From positions 1 through 25,452 of IMG/VR virus record IMGVR_UViG_3300027741_000248: DNA of 25,452 nt. The stretch is one strand, 5' to 3'. How positions within the stretch are numbered: the stretch's first letter is position 1; the number at the start of each line of letters is the position of its first letter. The notes under the pieces are model-generated. The model did no database searches, was not told the origin of the DNA, and saw nothing but the letters and a program-made list of their open reading frames with translations. The position numbers were made by a program, and so were the translations under genes. This document shows, in pieces, positions 13,665-25,452 of this stretch. The DNA is from a virus.

Positions 13665-13873
13665 GCAAGAAAAAACAACTTGGTATTGACCCTGCGCTTG
13701 AAAAAGCCATTGCCAAACTGTTGGAAGAGACTGTCAATGATGTCACTGCCAGCTTGACCGACAAGATGAAGATTATTGATCGCAGCTTGAAATTGGAAGC
13801 CTTGAAACTCAAAGTGTCTGATGACGCATGGGGATCAGGATTCTTTGAAGAAGATGACGAGAGTGAAACATAA
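13661..13873 (+). CDS. Small acidic-tailed helical protein (70 aa)
   Basis: The start overlaps the preceding stop (ATGA). The product is alpha-helical with 'ALEKAIAKLLEETVNDVTAS' and 'KMKIIDRSLKLEALKLK' and an acidic C-terminus (FFEEDDESET). I do not recognise a family with known function. It may be a virion assembly or scaffold-like protein, by position only. A gap of 33 bases follows before the next gene. Confidence 0.6.
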   Translation: MSKKKQLGIDPALEKAIAKLLEETVNDVTASLTDKMKIIDRSLKLEALKLKVSDDAWGSGFFEEDDESET

Positions 13874-13906
13874 CGATATACTACGGCTTTCTTTTAGGGG
13901 ATGATC

Positions 13907-14155
13907 ATGGAACAAAAAGTAGCTGCTCTTTTATCGTTGGCGTTAGCGGTAATTACCGACAGATTGTTAACAATCGTTGCATTGGGGATGACATTTGCCC
14001 TAGCAACGTGGATAATGAACAATCCTGACTGGTTAAGACTGTGCGCCTTTGGATTCTTCTGTGTCAGTGTGTTTCTGCCTGTTCTATACAAGGAGCGTAA
14101 ACGTGAACAAACTATTCCAAACCCAGTGCCTGTACAAGGAAATGACGCATTCTAA
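13907..14155 (+). CDS. Small membrane protein, two helices (82 aa)
   Basis: ATG 13907 is preferred over ATG 13901 because the AGGGG sequence lies at good spacing to 13907 but touches 13901. Two or three hydrophobic segments ('ALLSLALAVITDRLLTIVAL', 'MTFALATWIM' and 'LCAFGFFCVSVFLPVLY') cover residues about 7-66, followed by a basic 'KERKREQ' tail. This could be a holin-like or virion-associated membrane protein; nothing decides between them. The end overlaps the next gene by 53 bases. Confidence 0.55.
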   Translation: MEQKVAALLSLALAVITDRLLTIVALGMTFALATWIMNNPDWLRLCAFGFFCVSVFLPVLYKERKREQTIPNPVPVQGNDAF

Positions 14156-14366
14156 GGATGCAACTTTTCGTAATGGCGACAACCGTGTTCCTGTAGACGG
14201 CACACTTCAATACCGGTGGGCTGACAGCATGTCCACTCTGCGTCCTGAGACTGGCCGCAACTTCATGGAAAACAAGGGTGTCTTCAAAGACAAGCACCCG
14301 ACAAATCCAGAATCCAGCCCGTTCTATATGACCGGTGGCACAAAACGTAGCCATCCGCAGGAGTAA
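14103..14366 (+). CDS. Small conserved tail-region protein, GTG start (87 aa)
   Basis: The GTG at 14103 has an AAGGAG site at good spacing; ATG 14143 has an AAGGA that is too close. The product 'MNKLFQTQCLYKEMTHSKDA' continues with 'GDNRVPVDGTLQYRWADSMS', 'TLRPETGRNFMENKGVF' and a C-terminal 'HPTNPESSPFYMTGGTKRSH'. The 'D.RVP.DGTL.YRWAD..STLRPETG.NFMENKGV' block looks conserved and globular. I do not recognise its function. It directly precedes the large tail gene and may assist its assembly. Confidence 0.55.
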   Translation: MNKLFQTQCLYKEMTHSKDATFRNGDNRVPVDGTLQYRWADSMSTLRPETGRNFMENKGVFKDKHPTNPESSPFYMTGGTKRSHPQE

Positions 14367-14369
14367 TCA

Positions 14370-17015
14370 ATGGCCAATATCACATCTTTTGCTCCCGCAC
14401 CAATCAGCCAGGCCAATGGCCAAGCAATAACCCAAGCCAATCAACGCTCTGGTGCTTATGATGCCGTGGACAAGCTGCGGGTCAGCACACCCCAATCCTT
14501 GATTGACACTGACTTTGAATACGGCCAACAGTCTTCAAAGTGGGAACAAGTTGCACTGCAACAAAACCGTCAGTCTTGCTATTACTTAACCAACACGCCT
14601 TTGCAAGTCACTGCTATTGCTGGCAACCAGACAAACAAGTATCAGTTGGGAATTACTACCAGTAATAACACTACGATTCCTACAGGCACACCGATTTTCA
14701 TTCAAGACCCGTTGGATGCCAATGCCGGTGGTTGGGGACTTGTGACCACAGCATCAAGCGCCAGCACCTCTTTTACAGTGACTATGGGTTCACAGACCAC
14801 AACTTCTACTTGCTGGTCAGCCACTGCCACTTACGTGTACCAAGGCTATTTTTATAGCCAGTGTGGTATATCTTTGGGCATCACCACAGCATTTACTTTC
14901 TCTGGCGCAACAGTGACTTGTGTCACGGCATACCCTCATGGTTTGTCTGTTGGCTCTCTGATCTTTGTGACAGGCACAACAGGACCATCCGCTGCTACAC
15001 AGATCAACTCGCCACAAACTGTGGCTACTGTCACAGATGCCAAGACATTTACGTTCACCAACGTCAATGGAACACCGTCTGCAACCATCACCAACGTGGC
15101 CAACAACACTACGCTGTATGCCCGTCCTTCTGGTTTTGTGGACTGCCATGCTTATGATGGATCGGTTAACTTCACTGCTGGCGCTGCTGTGCCTAACGCA
15201 ATCCTGTTCCGTCAGACTCGCAGATATTTCCGCTATCAGTCTGGCAAGGGCATTCAGTTCTCGACCGGATCAATGCTTGCCCCTCAGATTCAGACACCTA
15301 CTCTGACGGCCTCTGGTTACACGGTTACTGTCACAACCAAGACCCCACACTTGTTGGCCATCAACACGTATGTCAAAGTCACTGGCGCTGACCAGACCAT
15401 CTACAACGGCACATTCTTGGTGCAGTCTGTTCCTTCTGCCACGACATTTACTTACTTCACCGCAGGTAATGTCGTGCCAAGCGTTCAGACCGAAACGTCT
15501 ACTGCACCCAACATCTTGCACGTTAGCCCAATCAATTGGTGGGGCAGTAGCAACAAGATTGGTTTCTTTGACCAACAAAATGGATTCTTTTTCCAATACG
15601 ATGGTCAACAACTGTATGCCGTTTTACGCAACAGTATCAACCAAATACCTGGCACTGTGTCTGTGACCAACGGTAATGCCACGGTTACTGGTAGCGGTAC
15701 ACAATTCTTGAGCAATTTGGTGGTAGGTGACTACATCGTTATTCGTGGTCAGTCTTACAAAGTCTTGACCATTACAAGTGACACGCAACTCTATATCTCT
15801 CCTGAGTACAGAGGAACAACGATTGCCAACGCTATTGTGTCTCGCACTATAGATGTAAAAGTCCCGCAGTCACAGTGGTATGACACGTTGGATGGCTCTA
15901 ATAGTCTTTCCAATCCGTCTGGTTATGCGCTTGATCTGACCAAAATTCAGATGTGGTACATCGACTATTCTTGGTACGGTGCTGGCGCTGTTCGGTTTGG
16001 TATTCGTACTGTTGGCGGTGCTATCAACTATGTCTACACATTCCAGAACAACAACGTGCAGTACACGGCTTACTTGCGTTCTGGCAACTTGTGCAGCCAC
16101 TATGAACAAAACAATGAAGTCCCTGTGACTAACCTGTTGGCAAGTATCGGCACTGGTGACACAACGATCAATGTCGGTAGCACACAGAGTTTTAACCCTG
16201 CCGGCGGCACTGCGATCATTCGTGGCAACGGTACGGCTGGTGTGGTGGAGTACATCAAGTACACAGGACTGACTGCCACAACCCTGATAGGTGTGACCAG
16301 AGGCCAGACTGGTGGTGCGGCTGCGACTGCGTTCACTTATTCAGCTAGTGCGCCTGTGACAGTGGAATACTCTTCTCCTGACACGGCAGCACTGTTGTCT
16401 CACTGGGGTTCGTCAGTTGTGATGGATGGCGGCTTCACAGCAGATGCGTCAGCCATTTACAACTACGGCATGACCACTTCTTTGACCAGCCCGAACTCTA
16501 CGGCTGCTGTGCCGATCATGGCCATCCGTCTTGCTCCATCTGTGGACAACGGCACGACTGGCTTGTTTGGTGTAAAAGAAATCATCAACAGATTGCAGGT
16601 TCAGTTTCGTGAGATTGCTGTAGTGACCAACGTCACATATTTGATTCAATTGATTTTGAACGGCGTACCGTCAGGATTCTCTGGATCGTTTGGTAACGTG
16701 GCTCAATCAGGTACAACCACAGATTCGATTTCACAAATAGCGGTGAACACTACAAACTCAATAACGATCAGTGGTGGTACATCCATTGCGGCTTTCTACA
16801 GCAACACTGGTGGGCAGACCACGTATGACCTGTCATACATTGCGCCAACAGGAAATGCGGCTTTGGGTGGCGGTACATCTAACACTGTGCCAACCAGCCA
16901 GGCTAACGTCTTCCCAGATGGTCCTGACATTGTGTATGTGGTGGCCAGTGCAACAATTGCCGGTGCAAGTAACACATGTCTTGCTCGTTTAAACTGGGTG
17001 GAGTCTCAGGCTTAA
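14370..17015 (+). CDS. Large tail structural protein (881 aa)
   Basis: A strong AGGAG site precedes ATG 14370. The N-terminus has 'GAYDAVDKLRVSTPQSLIDT' followed by 'DFEYGQQSSKWE', a segment I know from structural proteins of several large and environmental phages. The rest is almost all beta-rich and Thr/Ser/Gly-rich with repeated short domains. Examples are 'PHGLSVGSLIFVTGTTGPSA' and 'PHLLAINTYVKVTGADQT', both followed by 'TFTFTN' or 'TFTYFT', which look like duplicated beta-sandwich units. A tail-shaft, baseplate or fibre role is likely. It ends tail-to-tail with rusA, the stops sharing TTAA. Confidence 0.65.
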   Translation: MANITSFAPAPISQANGQAITQANQRSGAYDAVDKLRVSTPQSLIDTDFEYGQQSSKWEQVALQQNRQSCYYLTNTPLQVTAIAGNQTNKYQLGITTSNNTTIPTGTPIFIQDPLDANAGGWGLVTTASSASTSFTVTMGSQTTTSTCWSATATYVYQGYFYSQCGISLGITTAFTFSGATVTCVTAYPHGLSVGSLIFVTGTTGPSAATQINSPQTVATVTDAKTFTFTNVNGTPSATITNVANNTTLYARPSGFVDCHAYDGSVNFTAGAAVPNAILFRQTRRYFRYQSGKGIQFSTGSMLAPQIQTPTLTASGYTVTVTTKTPHLLAINTYVKVTGADQTIYNGTFLVQSVPSATTFTYFTAGNVVPSVQTETSTAPNILHVSPINWWGSSNKIGFFDQQNGFFFQYDGQQLYAVLRNSINQIPGTVSVTNGNATVTGSGTQFLSNLVVGDYIVIRGQSYKVLTITSDTQLYISPEYRGTTIANAIVSRTIDVKVPQSQWYDTLDGSNSLSNPSGYALDLTKIQMWYIDYSWYGAGAVRFGIRTVGGAINYVYTFQNNNVQYTAYLRSGNLCSHYEQNNEVPVTNLLASIGTGDTTINVGSTQSFNPAGGTAIIRGNGTAGVVEYIKYTGLTATTLIGVTRGQTGGAAATAFTYSASAPVTVEYSSPDTAALLSHWGSSVVMDGGFTADASAIYNYGMTTSLTSPNSTAAVPIMAIRLAPSVDNGTTGLFGVKEIINRLQVQFREIAVVTNVTYLIQLILNGVPSGFSGSFGNVAQSGTTTDSISQIAVNTTNSITISGGTSIAAFYSNTGGQTTYDLSYIAPTGNAALGGGTSNTVPTSQANVFPDGPDIVYVVASATIAGASNTCLARLNWVESQA

Positions 17016-17431
17016 ATCTCTTGGACGAGGATGACAACTTCGGATTGTTCAGCATACTGTTTTGTTACGTGTGCTTCAATGATCTGGGTGTCATCCCCAT
17101 AGACTACGCCGTTCATGGCATCACAAAAACTCTTTGCCACATTATCCCAATCGGGTTTCTTTAAGGGTTTGTCTAGCCCGTTTAAACAGGCTTCCCTGCG
17201 TTTATTTGAGTATGACTTTGGCACTGCCATGTTGATGCTGATAAAGACCCGTACAGCGCCTTGGATCGCTTTAGAGTCACCCATCGCTTGCAAAGCGTAA
17301 AACCTTATCTGATCTTCATAAGATGCTGTTTTGGCATCTGTGTAGGTTTTGACAAAGTTTCCACGCTTTGCAAACTTGGGGCGACCTTTCCCCCGTGGTT
17401 CACCAGGGACGCTGTACGTGACTTGCATCAT
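17012..17431 (-). CDS. rusA: RusA-like Holliday-junction resolvase (139 aa)
   Basis: The N-terminus 'VPGEPRGKGRPKF' and the later 'KKPDWDNVAKSFCDAMNG' plus 'VVYGDDTQI' are diagnostic for RusA. Asp94, Asp96, Lys100, Asp104 and Asp113/Asp114 correspond to the acidic active site with its conserved Lys. RusA dimers cut four-way junctions and would resolve recombination or replication intermediates before packaging. Length about 139 aa fits phage members. ATG 17431 (or the adjacent 17428) immediately follows the stop of the PP-loop gene. It is the last gene of the minus-strand recombination operon. Confidence 0.9.
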   Translation of the reverse strand: MMQVTYSVPGEPRGKGRPKFAKRGNFVKTYTDAKTASYEDQIRFYALQAMGDSKAIQGAVRVFISINMAVPKSYSNKRREACLNGLDKPLKKPDWDNVAKSFCDAMNGVVYGDDTQIIEAHVTKQYAEQSEVVILVQEI

Positions 17432-18229
17432 TTAATCCCCACAAAAACAAGCTATTGATTCTTGTGTTGCGTCAAACATATCAATTTGATCTTTTGTATA
17501 TTTCATCATGCTTGCATATGTAGGACGATCTTTGCTGAATCTACCTTGAGCCAAATGTTCTTGATTTGCCCACCAAACCGCACGTTCTGGATTTTCTTGA
17601 ATCATGCTTGCTACTTGGGAAATTGGCTTCATAAAACATAAATCACAATTTGAATAATATCCATTGGTAGGAAGATCAAGATCAAAAAAATTTGTTTTCC
17701 AAAAATCTAAAACGTCATTTTTAGTTACTTTGGCATAAACCAACGGTGTCCACTTATCTTTCATTTTGGCAGCACGATATTGTTCATCAGCCCTGATGCC
17801 AACAGCAGTAATGTAATCATTAAAACCTATAGATTTTAAATAGGATTCAATAGGTTTTATCTTTGTATTGACAGTGCAGATTCTTTGTACAGAATTAGGT
17901 AAGTAAGGTTTACCGTTTTGCCAAATTGATTCTGCAAATGGTTCTCCGTTTCTTGATGCTGTTTGATAAGAAACTACTTTAAACCTATCAACGGGTTTTT
18001 CAGCCCATTGATACTCTAACCAAACAATTGACACATTCCAATTAACAGAACAATCATGCACAAATTTAAGAGTTGCTTCATCTTCTTTACCAGTGTTGGC
18101 AAAACATACAACAGCTTCATTTGGCAGGCTCATATCATGAGCTTCTAATATTTTGTAAAGCATGTATGCACTTGTTCGTCCACCACTAAAACTGATGCAC
18201 GTTGGTTCTGTAATTAGGAATGGATTCAT
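17432..18229 (-). CDS. PAPS-reductase-like PP-loop protein (265 aa)
   Basis: The N-terminus carries the PP-loop 'SFSGGRTSAYML' (SGGRTS at residues 15-20) that binds the phosphates of ATP or an adenylyl-sulfate. 'FANTGKEDEATLKFV' (about 43-57) and 'VGIRADEQYRAAK' (143-155) also match the PAPS-reductase/ATP-pyrophosphatase superfamily, as does 'PLVYAKVTKNDVLDFW'. Cysteines at 118, 195, 198, 261 and 263 ('NCDLCF' and C-terminal 'CFCGD') could hold a metal or iron-sulfur cluster. In a phage, such proteins may act in sulfur chemistry on DNA or RNA rather than in cysteine synthesis; that is inference. The ATG follows the previous stop directly. Confidence 0.75.
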   Translation of the reverse strand: MNPFLITEPTCISFSGGRTSAYMLYKILEAHDMSLPNEAVVCFANTGKEDEATLKFVHDCSVNWNVSIVWLEYQWAEKPVDRFKVVSYQTASRNGEPFAESIWQNGKPYLPNSVQRICTVNTKIKPIESYLKSIGFNDYITAVGIRADEQYRAAKMKDKWTPLVYAKVTKNDVLDFWKTNFFDLDLPTNGYYSNCDLCFMKPISQVASMIQENPERAVWWANQEHLAQGRFSKDRPTYASMMKYTKDQIDMFDATQESIACFCGD

Positions 18230-18592
18230 TTACTTTCCAATGACTTCTGAAGCACTTCCCGCAGCCACTTGATCCCGCCCAGACGTTTCCATTCCTCGTT
18301 GTGTCTGGGGATCAATCTGATTCCGATTGGCTTGCAACTCTTCGTAAGTTCTGACTTTGGTCTTGGCATTGTCGATTTCCATTAAAAACTCTTGTTGTAT
18401 ACCTTTCCAAAGACCAAGCGGATGGCTCTCCAGCTCTTGCACTCTGTACCAAGTATGCTCTTTCCAACCCCTCGTCATGCCCATACGGATCAAGTGATTT
18501 AAGGTCTCCTGATAGTATGAGGGCTTGACGGATGGTGGCTGGGAGGAAGAGTCTACCTTCTCTGACTTGATCGAGAATGCGTATTGCTTCAT
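18230..18592 (-). CDS. Small phage protein overlapping another ORF; start uncertain (up to 120 aa)
   Basis: The central part, 'ETLNHLIRMGMTRGWKEHTW' then 'YRVQELESHPLGLWKGIQQE', resembles short phage proteins with a 'GWK...W.R.QEL..HP.GL..G' core, so this frame is probably coded. The first ~28 residues look less convincing, and ATG 18592 has AAGG immediately against it, so the true start may be internal or translation may enter by frameshift. Most of it overlaps the ORF that starts at 18602 in another frame. The C-terminus is polar. It is adjacent to the PP-loop gene. Function unknown. Confidence 0.5.
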   Translation of the reverse strand: MKQYAFSIKSEKVDSSSQPPSVKPSYYQETLNHLIRMGMTRGWKEHTWYRVQELESHPLGLWKGIQQEFLMEIDNAKTKVRTYEELQANRNQIDPQTQRGMETSGRDQVAAGSASEVIGK

Positions 18593-18602
18593 CCTTGGTC
18601 AT
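18312..18602 (-). CDS. Small phage protein, overlaps the next gene (96 aa or shorter)
   Basis: ATG 18602 lies two bases beyond the stop of the SSB-like gene (TGACATG), suggesting re-initiation. The first ~34 residues, 'MTKDEAIRILDQVREGRLFL' then 'PATIRQALILSGDL', look like a short family often found in phage replication regions ('ALxLTGDL' ending). Past residue 34 the frame runs 60 more codons over the 18230-18592 gene and its composition looks less protein-like. Either the annotated C-terminus is real and dual-coded, or ribosomes shift to the other frame. No function recognised. Confidence 0.45.
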   Translation of the reverse strand: MTKDEAIRILDQVREGRLFLPATIRQALILSGDLKSLDPYGHDEGLERAYLVQSARAGEPSAWSLERYTTRVFNGNRQCQDQSQNLRRVASQSESD

Positions 18603-18603
18603 G

Positions 18604-18954
18604 TCAAAACGGGATTTCGTCATCATCAATGTAATTCTGCTTTTGCAAAGCAGGGCGACCAAAGCCAGGGCGGGGTGTCAAAGGACGGGGCTGCACTTCT
18701 TTGGGCGTGTCCTTTTCCTGCTCCTTCAACTGATTCTGTTTCTTGCTCCAGTTGTCTTCACGCAACGACAGTAGCGTAAAACCAGATGAAGTTTCCTTAG
18801 TCCAGACACCAAACTTCAGCTTTTCGCCGGCCTTGTAATCCATCTCAAGGGTGATGAATCCAGTGTACTCAGGTGCTTTATCTGACCTGCGCTTCTCTGG
18901 TGGATCGTAGTAGGCAACTCCTGTGCCTGGTCTTTGTATGTGTGGGTCTGCCAT
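18604..18954 (-). CDS. Putative single-stranded-DNA-binding-like protein with SSB tip (116 aa)
   Basis: The last residues, IDDDEIPF, match the acidic tip of bacterial SSB (DDDIPF), which recruits replication and repair partners. The N-terminal half has beta strands 'YTGFITLEMDYKAGEKLKFG' and 'VWTKETSSGFTLLSLREDNW', with one or two aromatic residues per strand, as in OB-type DNA-binding folds; a Lys/Gln/Pro-rich linker joins this to the tip. The neighbours are RecT-like, exonuclease and RusA genes, which fits a role in protecting recombination intermediates. No standard SSB domain signature is seen, so the fold is inferred. A strong AAGGAG site precedes ATG 18954. Confidence 0.6.
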   Translation of the reverse strand: MADPHIQRPGTGVAYYDPPEKRRSDKAPEYTGFITLEMDYKAGEKLKFGVWTKETSSGFTLLSLREDNWSKKQNQLKEQEKDTPKEVQPRPLTPRPGFGRPALQKQNYIDDDEIPF

Positions 18955-18957
18955 AAG

Positions 18958-19479
18958 TTACTCCTTGATGTTATTAAGATTAAATGTGTCGGACATGATT
19001 TCTTGGTAATCGAAATGTTTACCAAAACAGTCCTTAAAAAAGATTTCTTCAGCAGAAAATCCCTCTATCCCTTTATCATATACATAGCACTTTTTAGGAA
19101 TGCTGATCTGATTTTTGAGGAATGCCATGCCTTTGCTGGTGACTTGCCACAGTCCCTCTGACTTCTTGGTCTTGTCTTCTGTCTTGTCTACTTTGACGAT
19201 CAGACCCCAGTGCTGCAGTGCGGGATAAGTTCTGCTCTTGACGATCCACAGTGGTGCAGTGTCAGTGATCTTTACAAACCCGTTGTCGTTGACTGGCTGG
19301 CGTGACAACCATAGCAAGGACAGTGCCATGTTCTCTGTCAGGCTCACAGCATTGATCTTGCCCCAGCGGTCACAGCAAGGACAGCGACCTCCTTCGTTTT
19401 CGATGGTAGTGCGCCAATTAGCTCGAATTGAGTCCAGCGCCCCCTCCCCAAAAAAATCCAGTTGTTTCATAAAACTCAT
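18958..19479 (-). CDS. Cys-containing phage protein in recombination operon (173 aa)
   Basis: ATG 19479 overlaps the RecT-like stop (ATGA) and has a near-perfect GGAGGTG site; an ORF extension to 19527 is unlikely. The N-terminal part 'SIRANWRTTIENEGGRCPCC' then 'DRWGKINAVSLTENMALSLL' has a C-x-C-C cluster (residues 33-36), possibly one half of a metal site. 'HWGLIVKVDKTEDKTKKSEG' and 'LWQVTSKGMAFLKNQISIPK' look like a winged-helix region. I have seen similar 'CPCCDRWGKIN' proteins beside phage recombination genes, with no assigned function. Confidence 0.6.
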   Translation of the reverse strand: MSFMKQLDFFGEGALDSIRANWRTTIENEGGRCPCCDRWGKINAVSLTENMALSLLWLSRQPVNDNGFVKITDTAPLWIVKSRTYPALQHWGLIVKVDKTEDKTKKSEGLWQVTSKGMAFLKNQISIPKKCYVYDKGIEGFSAEEIFFKDCFGKHFDYQEIMSDTFNLNNIKE

Positions 19480-20237
19480 GGCTGCACCTCCAACGGTGTA
19501 AGTTTGGCCAACAAAGTGGCGTTGCACTTTTCAAGAGCTTTCATACGTTCTTCTTTTGCTTCTTCTGTAAATTTAGGACTCTTCTGTATCTTGATAAACA
19601 ATACGTTAAATGCTTCAAGCCATTCCTCCATCGTGGCGTAGCTGGCGTAGGCTTCTTCAGCGCCAGGGATCATCAAAGCATAGGGAAGGCTCTGCGTAGG
19701 CTCAAATACTTCAGCATCTGATACTGTCTCCACCCGTTCCACGTTGCCCATGTGCTTCGGCGGCGGCTGAAAATCTTGAACTTCTTCCGGCGTATAGACT
19801 CCGACAACGCACCCTGGGAAGACGGCACGAATGCCTTCCGAAATAGTTCTCGCACGTAACATTGCTCTTGGGTACTTCGACCAATTATCCTTATTTGCGA
19901 TTCCAATGCGCTTCGCCTGAGCAAGACTCCAGCCCAACTCAAGTGTACCGCCCTGCGGATGGCTAAAGACTCCCGTAACCTGCTCATCTGTGTATTCCTT
20001 CCAAACTACTGAACCACCGGCTGCTTGAAAGCGAGCCAGCATTGCGTCTGCTTTGAGTGCTGGACGGCCTTGGATAACGTGGTAGTCCCGCATTGCCACG
20101 GCTGGGTGCATGTTCTCGCCTTGGCACAGCAACATGATTGCCAGTGCTTCCTGAGAGTTCTTGAAGCCAAACATCTTGGATGATGCTGCAACCTCGGCCA
20201 TCTGTTGCATGTCGTTATACGGAATGATGTTGCTCAT
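19476..20237 (-). CDS. RecT-like single-strand annealing protein (253 aa)
   Basis: The block 'GENMHPAVAMRDYHVIQG' followed by 'RPALKADAMLARFQAAGG' (about 40-74) and the later 'NWSKYPRAMLRARTISEG' followed by 'IRAVFPGCVVGVYTPEEV' are typical of phage RecT-family annealing proteins. These load onto single strands exposed by an exonuclease and pair them with homologous DNA. The exonuclease candidate is the gene just upstream, 2 bases away, as expected of an exo/annealing pair. The C-terminal third (about 160-253) is acidic and helical. An AAGGGG site precedes ATG 20237. Confidence 0.75.
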   Translation of the reverse strand: MSNIIPYNDMQQMAEVAASSKMFGFKNSQEALAIMLLCQGENMHPAVAMRDYHVIQGRPALKADAMLARFQAAGGSVVWKEYTDEQVTGVFSHPQGGTLELGWSLAQAKRIGIANKDNWSKYPRAMLRARTISEGIRAVFPGCVVGVYTPEEVQDFQPPPKHMGNVERVETVSDAEVFEPTQSLPYALMIPGAEEAYASYATMEEWLEAFNVLFIKIQKSPKFTEEAKEERMKALEKCNATLLAKLTPLEVQP

Positions 20238-20239
20238 AT

Positions 20240-21142
20240 TTACCCCTTAATTAAGAATCTACGGCTACCAGCCTTTTGCACAACAAACTTCTCGTAAATG
20301 TCGGGCATGGCTGACTGAAACAGCTTGCCATCAAAACCCATTGTGGGCTTGGCAGACTTCCATGTGGCCAGTACTGAGCCATCAATGGCGACCAGGCTGT
20401 CAGCATCTTGCATGTACCCTTGGATCAGTGTCTGGATTTGCTCTTCTTGCTTCTCCAGTTCCTTGATCTTGGCCTTGAGATCAAACAGGATGGCACAGGC
20501 TTGCTCGACCGATTGGCTGGCCATCTTTGCTGTACCAGCTACTGAGGCAGGGTAGAGCAGTTTGGTCTGCTCTAGGTCTTCTGGCGGCAGTGTTGTGCCG
20601 TTTTGCACATGAGTCCAGACTTCGGACATGGTGCGGATATGGTCAGCCTTCATCTGATCGGTGACCTCGACAGGGATGATGACCAGCTCTTGGCCACCAA
20701 ACAGGACAGCCAGATAGACCTTGTTCACGCCCACGACTGTTGCTTCATGGATACACTGAGCCATGTCAGCAGGTGGCATCATGCCGGTGTCAGGATCATA
20801 TTTTGATCTTGTGGCTGCGTTGTAGTTCTTGCATTCGATCAGGACTCTGCGGATGTCTTCGTACCCTTCAAAGTCTATGTGGGTTTTTAGCCACACGTTG
20901 TCTGGGTGGCTGAATGATTCATCACGCTTGGTTAACTCAAAACCAAGACGCTGTGCAGCCAGTTGACCAATGATTGGTTCCATGACATGACCCATCTGGA
21001 CAGCTTCTATGCCGGACAGATCGGGAATAGGCATCTTGCCCAGCTTGGTCAGAATAACTTCGTTGGCTTTACCAGATGCTATGCGTCTGGCATCGCCTGA
21101 CCACATTGCACTATTGCGGGTTTCGGGTGAAAAGTCACTCAT
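20240..21142 (-). CDS. YqaJ-like viral recombinase / exonuclease (300 aa)
   Basis: ATG 21142 is chosen because an AGGAG site stands 9 bases upstream; the longer frame to 21265 reads through the Cys-rich gene. The PD-(D/E)xK nuclease signature is visible: 'MGHVMEPIIGQLAAQRLG' (Glu55), 'LKTHIDFEG' (Asp90), 'VLIECKNYNA' (Glu103-x-Lys105) and 'ADMAQCIHEATVVGV' (Gln129). Such YqaJ-family enzymes digest duplex ends to give single-stranded tails. The C-terminal part contains a coiled coil ('KAKIKELEKQEEQIQTLIQG') and 'VLATWKSAKPT', also seen in this family. Directly followed by the RecT-like gene. Confidence 0.85.
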   Translation of the reverse strand: MSDFSPETRNSAMWSGDARRIASGKANEVILTKLGKMPIPDLSGIEAVQMGHVMEPIIGQLAAQRLGFELTKRDESFSHPDNVWLKTHIDFEGYEDIRRVLIECKNYNAATRSKYDPDTGMMPPADMAQCIHEATVVGVNKVYLAVLFGGQELVIIPVEVTDQMKADHIRTMSEVWTHVQNGTTLPPEDLEQTKLLYPASVAGTAKMASQSVEQACAILFDLKAKIKELEKQEEQIQTLIQGYMQDADSLVAIDGSVLATWKSAKPTMGFDGKLFQSAMPDIYEKFVVQKAGSRRFLIKG

Positions 21143-21401
21143 GTCTAATGTCTCCTGCCAAGAGTTCTTGCGTTTCTTCCAAAGTGAATTGGGGCGGGGT
21201 GGATTCTTCATAATGCTCACCAAGGGGTGTACAGCGGCCTGAGGGCTTGCGTTCATGGGTGGCAAAGGGTAAGTCTAGGATGGGCAAAAGATCGCCTGTA
21301 ACGAGCGATATTGGCCGTTCGTATCCGCAACGGGATAGCATAAGGTCATTGGGGGATGCTTCGGATAGAAGCCAGTGCTTGCAGTTTTTACAGAGTTTCA
21401 T
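21135..21401 (-). CDS. Small Cys-rich, probably zinc-binding protein (88 aa)
   Basis: The product starts 'MKLCKNCKHWLLSEASPNDL' and continues 'MLSRCGYERPISLVTG' and 'ERKPSGRCTPLGEHYE'. Cys4, Cys7, Cys25 and Cys57 form a likely four-Cys metal site (C-x2-C, then single Cys), a pattern common in short phage proteins ('YCKDCKH...C....G..C....'). Function unknown. An AAGGAAG site precedes ATG 21401, in the leader context shared with two other genes. The end overlaps the exonuclease start by 8 bases. Confidence 0.7.
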   Translation of the reverse strand: MKLCKNCKHWLLSEASPNDLMLSRCGYERPISLVTGDLLPILDLPFATHERKPSGRCTPLGEHYEESTPPQFTLEETQELLAGDIRHE

Positions 21402-21458
21402 GGATAACTTCCTTTTTGGTGATACTCAAGATTGAGTGATTGAATGATAACACTATGA

Positions 21459-21632
21459 TTAGATAGTGTATTGTTTAATTTTCTTGTCCTCCTTTACTTT
21501 GGGGTTATTGGGTTTTACAGTATCTACACCTAGTTTGCCTAGTACTTCACGCCAGGCTTTCTGGGCGGGGATGCAGAGTTTGCCTCCGGCTTCTTCTTTA
21601 GCTTTTAGTTTGTATGCCCATTCTTTGCTCAT
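21459..21632 (-). CDS. Small Lys-rich protein (57 aa)
   Basis: This frame is short but well supported: a GGGAG site stands 8 bases before ATG 21632 and the product, 'MSKEWAYKLKAKEEAGGKLC' then 'IPAQKAWREVLGKLG', is a compact basic helical sequence ending in a Lys-rich tail and TAA at 21459-21461. Similar short 'W..KLKAK...G..I...Q..AWREVL' proteins occur in phage early regions. Function unknown. It leads the recombination operon on the minus strand. Confidence 0.6.
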   Translation of the reverse strand: MSKEWAYKLKAKEEAGGKLCIPAQKAWREVLGKLGVDTVKPNNPKVKEDKKIKQYTI

Positions 21633-21694
21633 GCTGCTGTCTCCCTATAAAGTTTGGATTGATTGTGTCTACGTCTGATCATTCTTACTTTCAC
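21629..21694 (-). CDS. Possible 21-aa basic peptide, coupled to next gene
   Basis: GTG 21694 has an AAGGAA site 6 bases upstream and the frame reads MKVRMIRRRHNQSKLYRETA plus one Ala, then TGA. The stop overlaps the ATG of the 57-aa gene (ATGA), as in coupled phage genes. A peptide this short cannot be verified by eye; it could instead be a translational leader. Alternative starts: TTG further upstream or internal ATG 21682. Confidence 0.3.
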   Translation of the reverse strand: MKVRMIRRRHNQSKLYRETAA

Positions 21695-22001
21695 TTTAGA
21701 TTCCTTTCGGCAATACAAGGGCTACGATAGGGATGATGATAGGTAATAGCATCATTCTTATCTCAACCTTGTGGGGTTGTTATCAATGGGGTTTGACCCT
21801 TATTGATATGCACTGCTTTATTTATCGACCCAGAGAATGTGTCTCTGCAACACCCTATCAGCCTATCTAGTCGTTTATCGCTTGTGGTGCAACACTCACG
21901 CAGCCGTCCCCCTTGGGTCAAGCTGATCCGCTTTCCTCCCTCGCTGCCACAGACATGGGCACTTAATATCGCTAGGGGTACGGTTGTGTAAAAAGGACAA
22001 T
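21695..22001 (-). other. Structured non-coding region between RNA element and recombination operon
   Basis: No convincing gene is seen on either strand in these 307 bases. Inverted repeats that could fold as RNA: CAACC/GGTTG (21764-21768 and 21775-21779); TATCAAT/ATTGATA with inner GGG/CCC (21781-21808); CAGAGA/TCTCTG with a 5-base loop (21831-21847). TGCAACAC occurs twice (21846-21853, 21888-21895). It probably contains the leader and promoter of the operon starting at 21694, but no clear -35/-10 pair was found. The small-RNA terminator precedes it. Confidence 0.5.
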
Positions 22002-22077
22002 AAAAAAGCCCCTTACAACTGCCCTCGGTAGAAACCCATTGGTGTAGACCAAGGGCGAGAGCATGTGTAAGAGGCTT
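22002..22077 (-). terminator. Intrinsic terminator formed by the outer stem of the RNA element
   Basis: On the minus strand the 12-bp stem (22066-22077 with 22006-22017, GC-rich near its base) is followed directly by six T (22007-22002). It would end both the small RNA and readthrough from the methyltransferase operon. The intervening ~48 bases are themselves base-paired, so this is longer than a usual terminator hairpin. Confidence 0.65.
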
Positions 22078-22106
22078 AGACATAGTTGCTTTCTACGACA
22101 ACGGTT
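22002..22106 (-). ncRNA. Candidate pseudoknotted small RNA
   Basis: Downstream of a strong promoter lies a compact foldable element. P1 pairs 22066-22077 with 22006-22017 (12 bp, one G-U). P2 pairs 22056-22062 with 22021-22027 (7 bp, one G-U). P3 pairs 22049-22055 with 22035-22042 (one bulge) around a 6-base loop. The 7 bases left between P2 and P3 (22028-22034, RNA UUUCUAC) are exactly complementary to 22090-22096 (GUAGAAA), which sit in the loop of a 5' GUUG/CAAC hairpin (22085-22102). This gives a kissing or pseudoknot contact. P1 is followed by a run of six T. The family is not recognised. Seen: base pairing; inferred: transcription and function. Confidence 0.6.
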
Positions 22107-22109
22107 AAA

Positions 22110-22139
22110 AATATATCACGACTTAACAGGACTTGTCAA
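22110..22139 (-). promoter_or_regulatory. Sigma70-type promoter reading into the RNA element
   Basis: On the minus strand: -35 TTGACA (22139-22134, perfect consensus), an 18-base spacer, and -10 TATATT (22115-22110, one mismatch), with TG at the extended -10 position (22118-22117). The expected start is near 22106-22102. The extended -10 TG coincides with the TGA stop of the methyltransferase gene, so the promoter sits in coding sequence. No repressor site is evident. Confidence 0.65.
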
Positions 22140-22958
22140 GAGTCGCCAGGCAGTGGCAGCACACAAAGGGACTTGTCCATTTCCAATGGCTTTAAGTCTG
22201 TCCACTCTAGAGGCCAACCCATCAACCACTCTGTCCACGTTGGGTTCAGTTTCCCACCATTGTGCAGACCCGATACTTGTTCCCCAAGGTTGCCCTTGCC
22301 CCTGTCCCTCAACGCATGGCGAGAGTCTTGGGCTTTGGGTGTTCCCCACATATTCCGAATTGGATATTTCTGAGCAAATCCCGCCAAATTCATTGTGTAT
22401 CTTTTCCCCGCCAAAGTTGATGGACTGTTGTGATTTGCCCCGCCCGTACTGCTTGTAGGCGTTGGAACTAGCGACAATCCATATTCGTTCTCGTTTGTGC
22501 TTTGCACCAATGTCGGCAGCAGATACAACTCCCCACCTACTGTCATACCCCATTGAGGTAAGGTCTGCAAGGACTCGTTCAAGTCCTCTAGTAACGAGCA
22601 TTGGACTGTTCTCCACAAATGCGAATCGGGGTCGAACCTCGCCAATAATCCTTGCCATTTCTCGCCACATTCCTGATCGTTCTCCGTCAAGTCCGTCCCC
22701 ATTTCCTGCAACGGATATGTCTTGACAGGGAAACCCGCCCGATACAACGTCAACAATTCCTGCCCAAGGTCTTCCGTCAAAGGTTTGAACGTCATCCCAA
22801 ATCGGGAAAGGCGGGAGAGTGCCGTCATTTTGTCGGGCGAGCAATACGCTTGCGGGGTAGGCTTCCCATTCAACGGCGCAGACTGTTCGCCATCCAAGTA
22901 GTTTGCCGCCAAGTATTCCTCCACCTGCACCTGCGAAAAGAGCCAACTCATTCATCAT
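22116..22958 (-). CDS. C5-cytosine DNA methyltransferase (280 aa)
   Basis: All key motifs of C5-cytosine methyltransferases are present: motif I 'LALFAGAGGGILGG' (AdoMet binding, residues 5-18), motif IV 'GGFPCQD' with catalytic Cys78, motif VI 'VENS' (Glu116), motif VIII 'KRERIW' (about 155-160) and motif X 'KAIGNGQVP' (256-264). The target-recognition region between VIII and X (about 165-240) is short, and its specificity cannot be read. It would methylate phage or host DNA, for example to evade restriction; no cognate nuclease gene is adjacent. ATG 22958 or 22955; a G-run lies just upstream. A second ORF overlaps nearly all of it. Confidence 0.9.
   Translation of the reverse strand: MMNELALFAGAGGGILGGKLLGWRTVCAVEWEAYPASVLLARQNDGTLPPFPIWDDVQTFDGRPWAGIVDVVSGGFPCQDISVAGNGDGLDGERSGMWREMARIIGEVRPRFAFVENSPMLVTRGLERVLADLTSMGYDSRWGVVSAADIGAKHKRERIWIVASSNAYKQYGRGKSQQSINFGGEKIHNEFGGICSEISNSEYVGNTQSPRLSPCVEGQGQGQPWGTSIGSAQWWETEPNVDRVVDGLASRVDRLKAIGNGQVPLCAATAWRLLTSPVKS
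22136..22951 (-). CDS. Overprinted protein inside the methyltransferase gene (271 aa)
   Basis: The frame starts at ATG 22951, with the GGGGGG run at an ideal 7-base spacing, better than for the methyltransferase starts. The product 'MSWLFSQVQVEEYLAANYLD' contains 'LSRFGMTFKPLTEDLGQELL', 'SLLEDLNESLQTLPQWGMT', 'PTPTSS', 'WGTPKAQDSR' and a C-terminal 'LNPTWTEWLMGWPLEWTDLK' (residues 235-254). I recall similar proteins ('PTP.ASD...LNP.WVEWLMGWP.GWTDLK') beside or within phage cytosine methyltransferase genes, usually unnamed or called methyltransferase. It has none of the methyltransferase motifs. Function unknown; it could also be a by-product of codon bias in the other frame. Confidence 0.55.
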   Translation of the reverse strand: MSWLFSQVQVEEYLAANYLDGEQSAPLNGKPTPQAYCSPDKMTALSRLSRFGMTFKPLTEDLGQELLTLYRAGFPVKTYPLQEMGTDLTENDQECGEKWQGLLARFDPDSHLWRTVQCSLLEDLNESLQTLPQWGMTVGGELYLLPTLVQSTNENEYGLSLVPTPTSSTGGANHNSPSTLAGKRYTMNLAGFAQKYPIRNMWGTPKAQDSRHALRDRGKGNLGEQVSGLHNGGKLNPTWTEWLMGWPLEWTDLKPLEMDKSLCVLPLPGDS

Positions 22959-23131
22959 CCCCCCAAAATCAATAGAACGGCTAAGAAGCCCACGACAAAT
23001 GCAGCCAGTCCATATAGCACCACTTCATGTAGGGGCATGGGTTCTACCCATTGGGGTTCTTCCGGAAATGCGTCCATGAGGGTGCGAGGGAATGTCCTAA
23101 AAGTGTCGTCATGGTGTTTGAATTTGATCAT
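22955..23131 (-). CDS. Small phage membrane protein (58 aa)
   Basis: This short frame starts at ATG 23131 (GGAG site 9 bases upstream) and overlaps both neighbours: ATGA with the preceding stop and ATGATGA with the methyltransferase start. The product starts 'MIKFKHHDDTFRTFPRTLMD', a beginning I associate with short phage proteins ('KFK.HDDTFRT.PRT..EAF'), and ends in one membrane helix (about 38-57, 'VLYGLAAFVVGFLAVLLILG'). Function unknown. The tight overlaps support real translation. Confidence 0.65.
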   Translation of the reverse strand: MIKFKHHDDTFRTFPRTLMDAFPEEPQWVEPMPLHEVVLYGLAAFVVGFLAVLLILGG

Positions 23132-23460
23132 AATGGGCGCTCCAGGTTAACCAGAATACGGGTTATTTCAGACTCTAATGCTTCACGCTCGCCAATGGTA
23201 GTAAACCCATCCTGCAACATTGTCAGCGCCTTACATAGTGCATCAAACATGCATGGGGCTGCAGCCATTAGACGGGCATTGACCAACGCCTGGGCATCAT
23301 AATCGGGCTGCTTTTTGAGTGATGGGGCTTTAAGGGCCACTGCCGATCCGATTGACGGGCCATTATCTGCAGGGACAATATACCGGCCCTGCGTGTGCCA
23401 GGGTCCAGGCGTAGTGGTTGTCAATTGATGGGTGGTATCAGGCGTGTCAATTACTATCAT
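23128..23460 (-). CDS. Conserved phage protein, 'NARLxAAAP' family (110 aa)
   Basis: ATG 23460 is chosen because GGAG stands 9 bases upstream; the longer frame begins with TTG 23475. The product shows 'TTTPGPWHTQGRYIVPADNG' and 'YDAQALVNARLMAAAPCM' followed by a helical C-terminus. The 'TPGPW......I........NARL.AAAP.L..AL' pattern is widespread in phages and prophages and has no established function. No metal or membrane motif. Confidence 0.75.
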   Translation of the reverse strand: MIVIDTPDTTHQLTTTTPGPWHTQGRYIVPADNGPSIGSAVALKAPSLKKQPDYDAQALVNARLMAAAPCMFDALCKALTMLQDGFTTIGEREALESEITRILVNLERPL

Positions 23461-23487
23461 GATTTTATTCTCCAAGGGTTTAGGGGT

Positions 23488-23793
23488 TTAGATAGTGCAG
23501 CAGCCACAGCATGGGGCATCTTCGCAGCGTCCGGCCTTGTTGCGATAATATTCCTGGCCACTGAAATTGAACACGTGCGAGCGGTATTCTTTAGGGGTAC
23601 GTGTACGGGCTGCCAGATAGGCGCTGTCGTTCTCCGATTCCATTAGGCAGCTACTGTCTACTTCCGGATCCCCTGGTTCACTGATAAAAGCTTTTTTGGC
23701 AACAGTGTCATAAATTATTGAGTCCCCAGGGTTTATAGGTATGCCGGTTAAAGCACAGCGGCCAGGGTACTTGGCTATCATTGATTTTTGCAT
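23488..23793 (-). CDS. Cys-rich phage protein with GRCEDAPCCGCC tail (101 aa)
   Basis: An AAGGAAG site precedes ATG 23793. The N-terminus 'MIAKYPGRCALTGIPINPGD' looks like the first half of a small zinc finger ('KYPG.C..(T/C)G..I..GD'), and the C-terminus 'GRCEDAPCCGCCTI' carries five cysteines. I know this tail from other phage proteins of unknown function. The cysteines probably bind zinc. It sits between two hairpin-bearing gaps in the accessory operon. Confidence 0.7.
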   Translation of the reverse strand: MQKSMIAKYPGRCALTGIPINPGDSIIYDTVAKKAFISEPGDPEVDSSCLMESENDSAYLAARTRTPKEYRSHVFNFSGQEYYRNKAGRCEDAPCCGCCTI

Positions 23794-23831
23794 GATGGAA
23801 CTTCCTTAAATTGATTTATAAACGTAGGACT

Positions 23832-23867
23832 ATATAACCCCTATCCCTTGCAGAATAGGGGCTATAT
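23832..23867 (-). other. Strong RNA hairpin between genes
   Basis: Bases 23832-23846 pair with 23853-23867 over 15 bp (two G-U on the minus-strand RNA) around a 6-base loop. It fills most of the 82-base gap between two minus-strand genes. There is no T-run after it, so it is not a standard terminator; an mRNA stabiliser, processing site or binding site is possible. Confidence 0.7.
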
Positions 23868-23875
23868 GGGGCTAT

Positions 23876-24049
23876 TTAATAGCCTACAGCGTAATCTTCT
23901 AGGCTAGTGACAAGGCCGTCAAAGTCTTCGCTGCTACCGAGCATATCGGCCATGGCAAACACAATGCTCGCATCAATGCCTAGGCTATCGGCTAGATCGA
24001 GTAAATACTCTTTACGTGTTTCAAACCCGTATTCTTGATAAATTGTCAT
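23876..24049 (-). CDS. Small acidic helical phage protein (57 aa)
   Basis: ATG 24049 has a GGGAG site; an earlier ATG at 24094 lies in hairpin sequence. The product 'MTIYQEYGFETRKEYLLDLA' continues 'DSLGIDASIVFAMADMLGSS' and 'EDFDGLVTSLEDYAVGY'. Similar short 'YG(F)..RKEYL.DLA...G.......AD.LGP.EDFDGLV..LED' proteins are common in phages and prophages; none has a proven function. Mostly helical and acidic. Confidence 0.7.
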   Translation of the reverse strand: MTIYQEYGFETRKEYLLDLADSLGIDASIVFAMADMLGSSEDFDGLVTSLEDYAVGY

Positions 24050-24070
24050 GATGGGAACTCCCTTAATTGA
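24050..24070 (-). promoter_or_regulatory. Leader sequence shared with another gene's ribosome-binding region
   Basis: The bases before ATG 24049 read (minus strand) CAATTAAGGGAGTTCCCATC, nearly identical to CAATTTAAGGAAGTTCCATC before ATG 23793 (23794-23813); the leader before ATG 21401 has AAGGAAGTTATCC. The core GGRAGTTCC is partly palindromic around the Shine-Dalgarno sequence and could be a shared translational control site. Confidence 0.4.
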
Positions 24071-24082
24071 TTGATTGAAAAC

Positions 24083-24123
24083 CCTGTGAAACACAGGCCA
24101 TAAACCCCTATTTCTAAGGGTTT
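24083..24123 (-). other. Two adjacent hairpins between genes
   Basis: On the minus strand, AAACCC (24118-24123) pairs with GGGTTT (24102-24107). Immediately after, CCTGTG (24092-24097) pairs with CACAGG (24083-24088) around a 3-base loop and is followed by GTTTTC. The second could act as a weak terminator after the Gp88 gene. The first shares AACCCCTAT (plus strand) with the hairpin at 23832-23867. Confidence 0.5.
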
Positions 24124-24134
24124 ACAGTCTATAC

Positions 24135-24785
24135 TCAAGCTTGCATTAATCGGATAACCCTGGCCATCTTTTGACCATGCGCTGGATAGCATATCAAGTC
24201 AACCGATTTATCCCAGCATGCCCGGCATCCGCTGCACTTACCCTCATGTTCATATGCCCGGCATAAACTAGAACCAGGTTGATCCTGGTAAGTAGCTGCA
24301 TCTGGACCGATCACCGATCCATGCAAGCCAGGGATATATTCGCCGGTTATTGAGTCGCTAGAGAATCGCACTGACACGTTATCGAGTGCTTTCATGGCAT
24401 CAAATACCATGCGAAATTTTGGGAATTTATGCATACGTGTAGGCAGCCAGTGCTTGCACCAGGGCGTACGCTGCATAACCTCTAGAATCTTTTCTGCCAG
24501 TGCAAGAGAATATACGTCCCCAGAATCAAACCAGCGGAAATAACGATCATTCTCTAATGCAGCCACCATATCATCAACCCAGTCCATGCGCTCCCAGTCC
24601 GTACGATTGAATTCTCTAGGGGCTTTGACGTTAGGATAATTGTAGTTGCCTGTAGTGGCATAGCATCCCTTACACGCATCAACTAATACGCCGGGACTTG
24701 CAATTGATCCGGGACAAGTATCGATAGCTTGCAATGACCAGGATCTTATCCCGTCTAACTTTGATGTAATTGAAATTCTCGGCAT
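24135..24785 (-). CDS. Gp88-family protein, Cys-rich (216 aa)
   Basis: ATG 24785 is preferred (GGAG site) over ATG 24809. The product starts 'MPRISITSKLDGIRSWSLQA' and carries 'DTCPGS' (Cys24), 'VDACKGCYATTGNYNYPNVK' (Cys38, Cys41), 'YFRWFDSGDVYS', 'KHWLPTRMHKFPKF', and a C-terminal 'EGKCSGCRACWDK' (Cys184, 187, 190). This pattern matches the Gp88 family of mycobacteriophages and other phages, of unknown function. The Cys spacing resembles metal- or iron-sulfur-binding proteins, and the 'R(W/I)..SGD..S' stretch occurs in related TIM-barrel phage families. The enzyme activity is unknown. Confidence 0.75.
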   Translation of the reverse strand: MPRISITSKLDGIRSWSLQAIDTCPGSIASPGVLVDACKGCYATTGNYNYPNVKAPREFNRTDWERMDWVDDMVAALENDRYFRWFDSGDVYSLALAEKILEVMQRTPWCKHWLPTRMHKFPKFRMVFDAMKALDNVSVRFSSDSITGEYIPGLHGSVIGPDAATYQDQPGSSLCRAYEHEGKCSGCRACWDKSVDLICYPAHGQKMARVIRLMQA

Positions 24786-24812
24786 AACAATGCTCCGGTT
24801 AAAGTGCAAAAT

Positions 24813-24844
24813 AGCACTGAATAGCCCGTAGGCTATCCGCTGCT
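24813..24844 (-). other. Hairpin with UACG tetraloop between genes
   Basis: On the minus strand GGATAGCC (24838-24831) pairs with GGCTATTC (24826-24819), 8 bp with one G-U, around a C(UACG)G loop, a stable UNCG-type tetraloop. Outer AGCA/TGCT (24844-24841 with 24816-24813) extend it across a small internal loop. A short T-rich stretch follows, so a weak terminator or processing site is possible. Confidence 0.6.
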
Positions 24845-24847
24845 ATC

Positions 24848-25057
24848 TTAAACCTTGATTACATTCTCTAAACCATAAAAATGCTCATGGTTAGCTAAAT
24901 AACCTATAAACAGCATAATGTCAGGCTGCTGGCCTACTATGTCGCTAGTATCTTTGCAGATACCAGGTGAAGTTAAAAATTTAGACTCTAAACCACACTC
25001 TTTAACCAGTACGTTTAGATTGTCTACTGTAGTGCTTACACGTGCTTTTAATATCAT
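24848..25057 (-). CDS. Small phage protein (69 aa)
   Basis: An AAAGGAAAG site precedes ATG 25057; ATG 25084 is less likely. The product is 'MILKARVSTTVDNLNVLVKE' then 'CGLESKFLTSPGICKDTSDI', with 'MLFIGYLANHEHFYGLENVI' at the C-terminus. It is small, mixed alpha/beta, with two Cys and no metal pattern or membrane helix. I do not recognise a family. It is the first gene of the minus-strand accessory operon in this window. Confidence 0.6.
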   Translation of the reverse strand: MILKARVSTTVDNLNVLVKECGLESKFLTSPGICKDTSDIVGQQPDIMLFIGYLANHEHFYGLENVIKV

Positions 25058-25100
25058 GGTTACTTTCCTTTGAGTTAAGATCATGCAAAATTACATGATG

Positions 25101-25106
25101 ATTATA
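25101..25106 (-). promoter_or_regulatory. Possible -10 element for the accessory operon
   Basis: TATAAT is present on the minus strand about 45 bases before ATG 25057. No good -35 stands at 16-18 bases (the sequence there is CCATTA). TTGTCA occurs 24 bases upstream, too far for sigma70. It may need an activator or be chance in AT-rich DNA. Confidence 0.35.
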
Positions 25107-25261
25107 TAACGAGACAACTACAGTAATGGTTGACAACAATCTAAAATAATTTATTGTTGTATTTATGCCATTGTCAGTTAAGTGTAAGCATACTCTATAC
25201 AATGATGTTACATACCCTAAAGCTTATATCATGTGATAGCATCATAGTGATTAATTGATAG

Positions 25262-25270
25262 TTATCCACA
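25262..25270 (+). other. DnaA-box match TTATCCACA
   Basis: A perfect match to the E. coli consensus DnaA box in non-coding DNA. Only one perfect copy was seen, so an origin is not established; a single 9-mer match could be chance. Confidence 0.3.
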
Positions 25271-25340
25271 ATGGTCATCATGGGGTAAGGCTGAATGTAT
25301 TCCGCTTATCGTTCTCAGTACAATAAGCATAATCCATGCC

Positions 25341-25373
25341 TGCTAGGGTGCTATGTGATGCTATACGTGCTAT
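25341..25373 (+). repeat. Cluster of TGCTA(T) direct repeats
   Basis: TGCTA or TGCTAT occurs at 25341, 25349, 25359 and 25368 (8-10 bases apart), again at 25414, and in reverse as ATAGCA at 25236-25241. Spacing near one helical turn suggests a protein-binding array, but the unit is very short. Confidence 0.4.
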
Positions 25374-25452
25374 ATAGTACATAAGGCGTAATGGAATGGA
25401 CGAGTGAATGGGATGCTAGCTCTATGTGGTGTGACCCCCACATTGCTCCCAC

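Follow-up and report, generated by a model that had tools for sequence, protein, structure and literature searches.

Type III toxin-antitoxin loci combine one promoter, a pseudoknotted RNA, and a Rho-independent terminator that sets the dose of the downstream product (PMC5086642). By sequence, the phage element described here has the same order of parts as these loci (ToxIN, CptIN, and TenpIN), but its downstream product is a large RNA, and its pseudoknot, unlike theirs, involves the terminator hairpin itself. Tandem repeats of the kind found in type III antitoxin RNAs are absent from positions 21600-22300 of our sequence. The neighboring proteins tested against Pfam, PHROGs, and PADLOC match no toxin family, and in place of a ToxN-like gene there is a large noncoding RNA followed by a 57-amino-acid open reading frame (ORF). 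Because both the repeats and a toxin gene are absent, we do not class the element as a type III toxin-antitoxin system.

Antitermination provides a second point of comparison. The put RNAs of phage HK022 and other RNA-encoded antitermination signals are likewise short, structured phage RNAs that stand right after a promoter, in some phages after cro. However, put RNAs are not known to carry a terminator and depend on conserved sequence, whereas the element has its own terminator and a pseudoknot and conserves its architecture more than its sequence. The phi29 pRNA and the GOLLD and ROOL RNAs are also phage-encoded structured RNAs with complementary, covarying segments; the element differs from them in size and fold, in having its own terminator, and in a spacing that suggests intramolecular pairing. 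Finally, the Rfam model Betaproteobacteria-1 (RF02932) covers only about the first 120 nt of one kind of RNA found downstream of the element, and the pseudoknotted element lies outside it.

The element was studied in the virus record IMGVR_UViG_3300027741_000248 of IMG/VR, a stretch of 25,452 bases referred to below as the window, where it occupies 22139-22002 on the minus strand. It is one copy of a widespread, previously undescribed phage RNA, some 100 letters long, that brings a promoter and a terminator locked by a covarying pseudoknot. In the order of transcription, the features of the locus are as follows.

22116..22958, minus strand: upstream gene, a C-5 cytosine DNA methyltransferase (dcm-like; PF00145, E=1.5e-30)
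22110..22139, minus strand: sigma70-like promoter, with TTGACA at 22139-22134, an 18-nt spacer, TATATT at 22115-22110, and TG at 22118-22117
22102..22104, minus strand: inferred transcription start at the foot of the 5' hairpin, placed by its spacing from the -10 box and by the start of conservation among homologues
22085..22102, minus strand: 5' hairpin, with stem 22102-22098 / 22089-22085, an unpaired C at 22097, and the 7-nt loop GUAGAAA at 22096-22090
22066..22077, minus strand: P1 5' strand (AAGCCUCUUACA), from the fold and the alignment of homologues
22056..22063, minus strand: P2 5' strand (UGCUCUCG), from the fold and the alignment of homologues
22035..22055, minus strand: P3 hairpin (CCCUUGGU / ACCAA-U-GGG), whose length and sequence differ from one relative to another
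22028..22034, minus strand: pseudoknot 3' arm UUUCUAC in the P3/P2 junction, pairing with 22096-22090
22020..22027, minus strand: P2 3' strand (CGAGGGCA), from the fold and the alignment of homologues
22006..22017, minus strand: P1 3' strand (UGUAAGGGGCUU), which is the terminator stem, from the fold and the alignment of homologues
22002..22007, minus strand: U-run of the intrinsic terminator, where the RNA and the conserved module both end
21980..21998, minus strand: P0 segment, a possible partner of the 5' hairpin strand in read-through transcripts; its complementarity is weaker and often imperfect
21701..21986, minus strand: large RNA region (type A), with approximate ends, defined by homology to loci L057, L174, and L177; no ORF is assigned
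21462..21632, minus strand: first ORF after both RNAs, 57 amino acids, matching no toxin family

A sequence-only reading of the window had already picked out the promoter, with its extended -10 TG, and the 7-nt match between hairpin loop and junction, and both lie exactly where it put them. Its outer stem ending in a T-run corresponds to P1 and the U-run at 22007-22002. The stem lengths it gave (12, 7, and 7 bp) hold for P1, which has 12 bp, but P2 really has 8 bp and P3 has 3+5 bp with a bulge; the stem of the 5' hairpin has 5 bp. The nested fold is predicted at -43.1 kcal/mol, compared with -25.0 +/- 3.1 kcal/mol for dinucleotide shuffles (z = -5.9), and eight homologues gave z-scores of -4.5 to -6.7 against shuffles. 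The unit is nearly palindromic, and the covariance model also matches the plus strand weakly at 21981-22077 (22.8 bits), as it does in many homologues.

The window promoter matches the consensus at 11 of 12 positions, the top score in a promoter scan over 12000-25452, and homologue promoters average 10.0 of 12 matches, compared with 6.6 in shuffles. The distance from the end of the -10 box to the UUG of the hairpin stem is 7 or 8 nt in 86 of 89 homologues, and so the transcription start is placed at the hairpin foot. The sequence-only reading described an RNA gene after a methyltransferase, and the two do adjoin; nevertheless, the promoter overlaps the 3' end of that gene, with the -35 box in its last codons and the stop at 22118-22116. 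The methyltransferase is an incidental neighbor, since other copies of the element follow cro, terminase, or resolvase genes. Elsewhere on the minus strand of the window, a gene at 17432-18229 that adjoins a RusA gene encodes a protein like phosphoadenosine phosphosulfate (PAPS) reductase that matches SspD of DNA phosphorothioation defense (PADLOC, E=3e-11), and a GP88 family gene (PF17338) lies at 24135-24809.

A scan for relatives of the methyltransferase supplied loci in which nhmmer then detected diverged copies of the element. Several of the loops in these copies differ, and each has its exact complement at the same junction (GUAGGAA/UUCCUAC, GUAACGG/CCGUUAC, GUGAAGG/CCUUCAC, and GUUGCAC/GUGCAAC). 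A degenerate DNA pattern with no pseudoknot requirement matched at least 120 viral contigs, with about 90 real members among the matches listed. Among those listed matches, the pseudoknot pairing is exact in 89 of 107 distinct sequences, and nearly all of the remaining ones are visibly unrelated. Across the family, loop and partner change together into more than 20 different sequences. Imperfect pseudoknots also occur: one copy (L223) is mismatched, with loop GUGAGAA and partner UUUCCAC, and another (L098) forms 6 of the 7 pairs.

In an alignment of 54 members, 94.8% of cells are paired, compared with 79.0% after shuffling, and both partners have changed in 24 of 35 pairs. Four of the seven pseudoknot pairs show three or four pair types with no unpaired cell; this alignment (A1) was filtered beforehand for an exact pseudoknot, so its complete pseudoknot pairing is no evidence by itself. 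Because the 54 members had been chosen in this way, the covariance model R1 was built without the pseudoknot and was searched against loci fetched for other reasons, which makes the search a test independent of the pseudoknot selection. Its matches outside the training set (L203, L072, L202, L027, L025, and L034; E-values from 1e-18 to 6e-8) each carry an exact 7-nt complement, as do, by inspection, the marginal matches L011, L065, and L030. G-U pairs far outnumber A-C mismatches (137 versus 38), which indicates that the structure is selected as RNA and on this strand. A script scored the architecture in 61 of 64 distinct regions upstream of large RNAs, compared with 22 of 320 shuffled regions and 25 of 275 other T-run windows; a few of the 61 script matches are A/T-rich or otherwise due to chance (e.g., in L224, L214, L210, and L162), with a true pairing visible there by eye.

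The proposal that the locus encodes a functional RNA and more than a terminator is thus supported by the homologues, in which compensatory changes affect P1, P2, the stem-loop at the 5' end, and most of all the pseudoknot. The sequence-only reading had named compensatory substitutions in the stems and the 7-bp pseudoknot as the feature to look for; they are abundant, and homologues without them, one of its refuting outcomes, were not what we found. The roles it listed (operon regulator, decoy, packaging, or defense) are guesses, and it did not anticipate that the RNA belongs to an arrangement with a second, large structured RNA downstream.

That reading had also assigned the RNA to no known family, and Rfam 15 agrees. 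No model matches the window at its gathering score, the only hit at E<=5 is a 16-bit snoU31b match elsewhere, and no model matches at the element in the homologous loci scanned. Neither ARAGORN nor Rfam gives a tRNA or tmRNA match. The literature searched, with most subscription papers and preprints outside that search, yielded no earlier description of the element. BLASTN of the window element against a phage collection returned weak matches only, Vibrio matches among them, of which the best (MW202484) proved to be a true homologue; a search of phages with a second member and a plasmid search returned no match.

Copies follow cro-like genes, methyltransferases, large terminases, and resolvases (gene names assigned partly by eye), and some directly follow tRNA genes. 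Searches of host genomes recovered two contigs from bacterial metagenome-assembled genomes (L202 and L203), of which L203 reads as phage, and 399 genomes of one bacterial order gave a single further match, a weak one. The element is a phage RNA, mostly of uncultured phages, and the hosts are probably betaproteobacterial. It is common in environmental phages, whereas Rfam lacks it and sequenced bacterial genomes hardly ever contain it. Few structured phage RNAs are found, since most searches target proteins.

Directly after the U-run, nearly every copy is followed by a noncoding stretch of 200-300 nt, and the large structured RNA comes 15-40 nt after the terminator. Grouping the stretches by k-mer similarity gives seven sets with at least three members each, and the others are singletons. 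Examples from the at least seven sequence types are L082:3045-3240, L083:12245-12480, L198:8817-9030, and window 21986-21701. One type (in L022, L085, L193, and L133) is Betaproteobacteria-1, the sole type in Rfam, and another has 43 predicted pairs, of which 27 show compensatory changes. By energy alone, the window's own large RNA folds no better than shuffles (z = -0.8), and its status as a structured RNA consequently rests on its relatives. Retron, RNase P, and group I intron identities were considered for the large RNAs and rejected, being matches by eye with no Rfam support.

The coupling of the two RNAs also holds in reverse. For two of the large RNA types, loci were sought with core motifs of the large RNA itself and with no reference to the small element. 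Of the 71 newly fetched loci, 5 were cut by contig ends; an R1 match lies directly upstream in 54 of the 66 that remained, and a divergent element of the same plan was seen by inspection in 11 further loci, for a total of 65 of 66. The one locus with no recognizable element upstream of its large RNA is L277. A strict pattern scan for the Betaproteobacteria-1-like type gave no match, the pattern having been too strict. In at least one locus (L186), the element directly precedes a coding gene. Near-identical small RNAs also stand before different large RNA types, so the two RNAs have no sequence-specific partnership.

We propose, at an even chance, that this phage RNA gene is the first half of a two-RNA cassette in which terminator read-through sets the dose of the large RNA. 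The sigma70 promoter would start the transcript at the foot of the 5' hairpin, the emerging RNA would fold into P1-P2-P3, and the 7-nt loop of the hairpin would dock in the P3/P2 junction, some two helical turns up from the foot of the terminator stem. RNA polymerase would then stop at the U-run and release a compact RNA, about 100 nt long, whose 5' and 3' ends are both enclosed in structure. Between the terminator and the large RNA, a scan limited to sigma70-type sites found 6.73 consensus matches in homologues, compared with 6.78 in shuffles and 10.0 at the small-RNA promoter. Since no promoter of its own is detectable, the large RNA would most likely be made by read-through, either from the small-RNA promoter or from upstream genes, and with this source the element would make the small RNA abundant and the large RNA scarcer. 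We infer that termination is partial, that the pseudoknot either makes the RNA more stable or adjusts termination, and that the two RNAs work jointly. Against the cassette, near-identical small RNAs precede different large RNAs or even a coding gene, and a constitutive terminator would need no pseudoknot.

A switch based on the P0 segment was considered as well and rejected. An exact 5-nt match to the loop complement occurs after the terminator in 20 of 89 copies, compared with 12.3 expected, and P0 is accordingly kept only as a weak secondary signal. Its pairing energy is -14.98 kcal/mol, compared with -14.03 +/- 0.21 kcal/mol in within-type permutations.

The main rival to the cassette is a stand-alone, trans-acting small RNA whose shape binds a host or phage protein or a nuclease (as a decoy, in counter-defense, or in host takeover), with the large RNA as an independent passenger of the same mobile RNA island. 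We consider this possible though rather unlikely. The way in which copies are exchanged speaks for it: in 173 copy pairs whose RNAs are 91% identical, identity of the promoter, upstream, and downstream sequences is 55, 49, and 52%, at or near background. Among copies that are about 91% identical and have different downstream RNAs, identity drops to near the background of unrelated copies immediately outside the start and after the U-run. Over 22104-21995, the window RNA itself shares about 97% identity with the L085 RNA, while the flanks on both sides are unrelated. As judged from these comparisons, the conserved and exchanged unit is the transcript and not a larger stretch of DNA. A trans-acting RNA would also fit the moron-like occurrence after very different genes and the enclosure of the 5' end in a hairpin and of the 3' end in a terminator. 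However, there is little invariant sequence outside the helices for a protein to read, and a large RNA almost always lies directly downstream of the element, a neighbor that an RNA acting independently could do without.

Two further alternatives turn on the geometry of the pseudoknot. In most copies, even those that cannot be aligned with the window, the 3' arm ends 19-22 nt before the U-run, while the interval from loop to arm ranges from 45 to 96 nt. Such a near-constant distance would be expected if the element acted on elongating polymerase, as in a cis antitermination element like the put RNAs of HK022, where the nascent pseudoknot would bind RNA polymerase and let it pass its own and later terminators. 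One copy (L203) even lies between cro-like and replication-like genes (named by eye), the place of nutR in lambda. Yet other copies follow terminase or resolvase genes, and it is mainly architecture that is kept here, not the sequence on which put RNAs, not known to carry a terminator, depend; we regard antitermination as improbable.

Slightly less probable still is an intermolecular 7-nt pairing that would join the RNAs into rings or chains, as in phi29 pRNA or the GOLLD and ROOL RNAs. Covariation would look the same for pairing within or between molecules, and fully paired 7-nt loops are typical of kissing complexes. Nevertheless, 19-22 nt is about two A-form turns, which would put the docking site on the helix face where the linker lies, and this near-constant distance, together with a linker of 5-9 nt, argues for docking within one molecule. 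The length of the linker does not track helix length across copies. Moreover, the phage relatives have a gene for an ordinary large terminase and need no packaging RNA of the pRNA kind. A different element stands upstream of the large RNA in L210, L214, L221, L222, L236, and L252; there, the partner of ATTAGCGTCA, which lies inside the terminator hairpin, is not a hairpin loop but a 10-nt segment (TGACGCTAAT) located before P1.

The least probable reading, an ordinary strong terminator at a junction of phage mosaicism that serves as a recombination linker and matches its hairpin loop incidentally, accounts for flanks exchanged exactly at the element ends (L122 and L132 share upstream but not downstream sequence, and L142 and L172 the reverse), but it would need identical sequence and appears already disfavored by the covariation of loop and partner, and nearly every copy retains the promoter. 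In L142 and L172, whose downstream sequences are identical, the elements differ mainly in both pseudoknot arms and the P3 loop, as if the pair of arms had been swapped as a unit.

Returning to the two-RNA cassette, we more tentatively suggest, at somewhat less than an even chance, that freshwater phages carry a general system in which a pseudoknot-locked terminator RNA would be the gate and partner for at least seven large RNA types. Both RNAs would be exchanged as modules, with the limits of the small one set exactly by the ends of its transcript, and the various large RNAs would serve a single phage function, perhaps host takeover or counter-defense, as interchangeable effectors. The covariation is unusually clean, pseudoknot included, and compensatory changes of this kind make it straightforward to test by genetics whether intrinsic termination can be controlled by a pseudoknot. 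The element also supplies a simple rule for locating a set of large uncharacterized RNAs, which makes those RNAs findable and testable.

Some of these large RNAs have distinctive features of their own. In types D and E (L083, L183, L190, L085, L193, and others), a variable stretch of about 8 nt after GGCUCCG is repeated directly after CACCA near the 3' end. The stretch is AAGGGCAU in L183 and UCCAGCAU in L085; it differs between phages, and both copies agree. In L084, L094, L106, L188, L190, L104, and L128, an extra element of about 90-170 nt, mostly closed by a long inverted repeat, lies between the small and large RNAs, and the one in L104 contains a T arm like that of a tRNA (GGTTCGATTCC) beneath a very long stem that resembles an acceptor stem.
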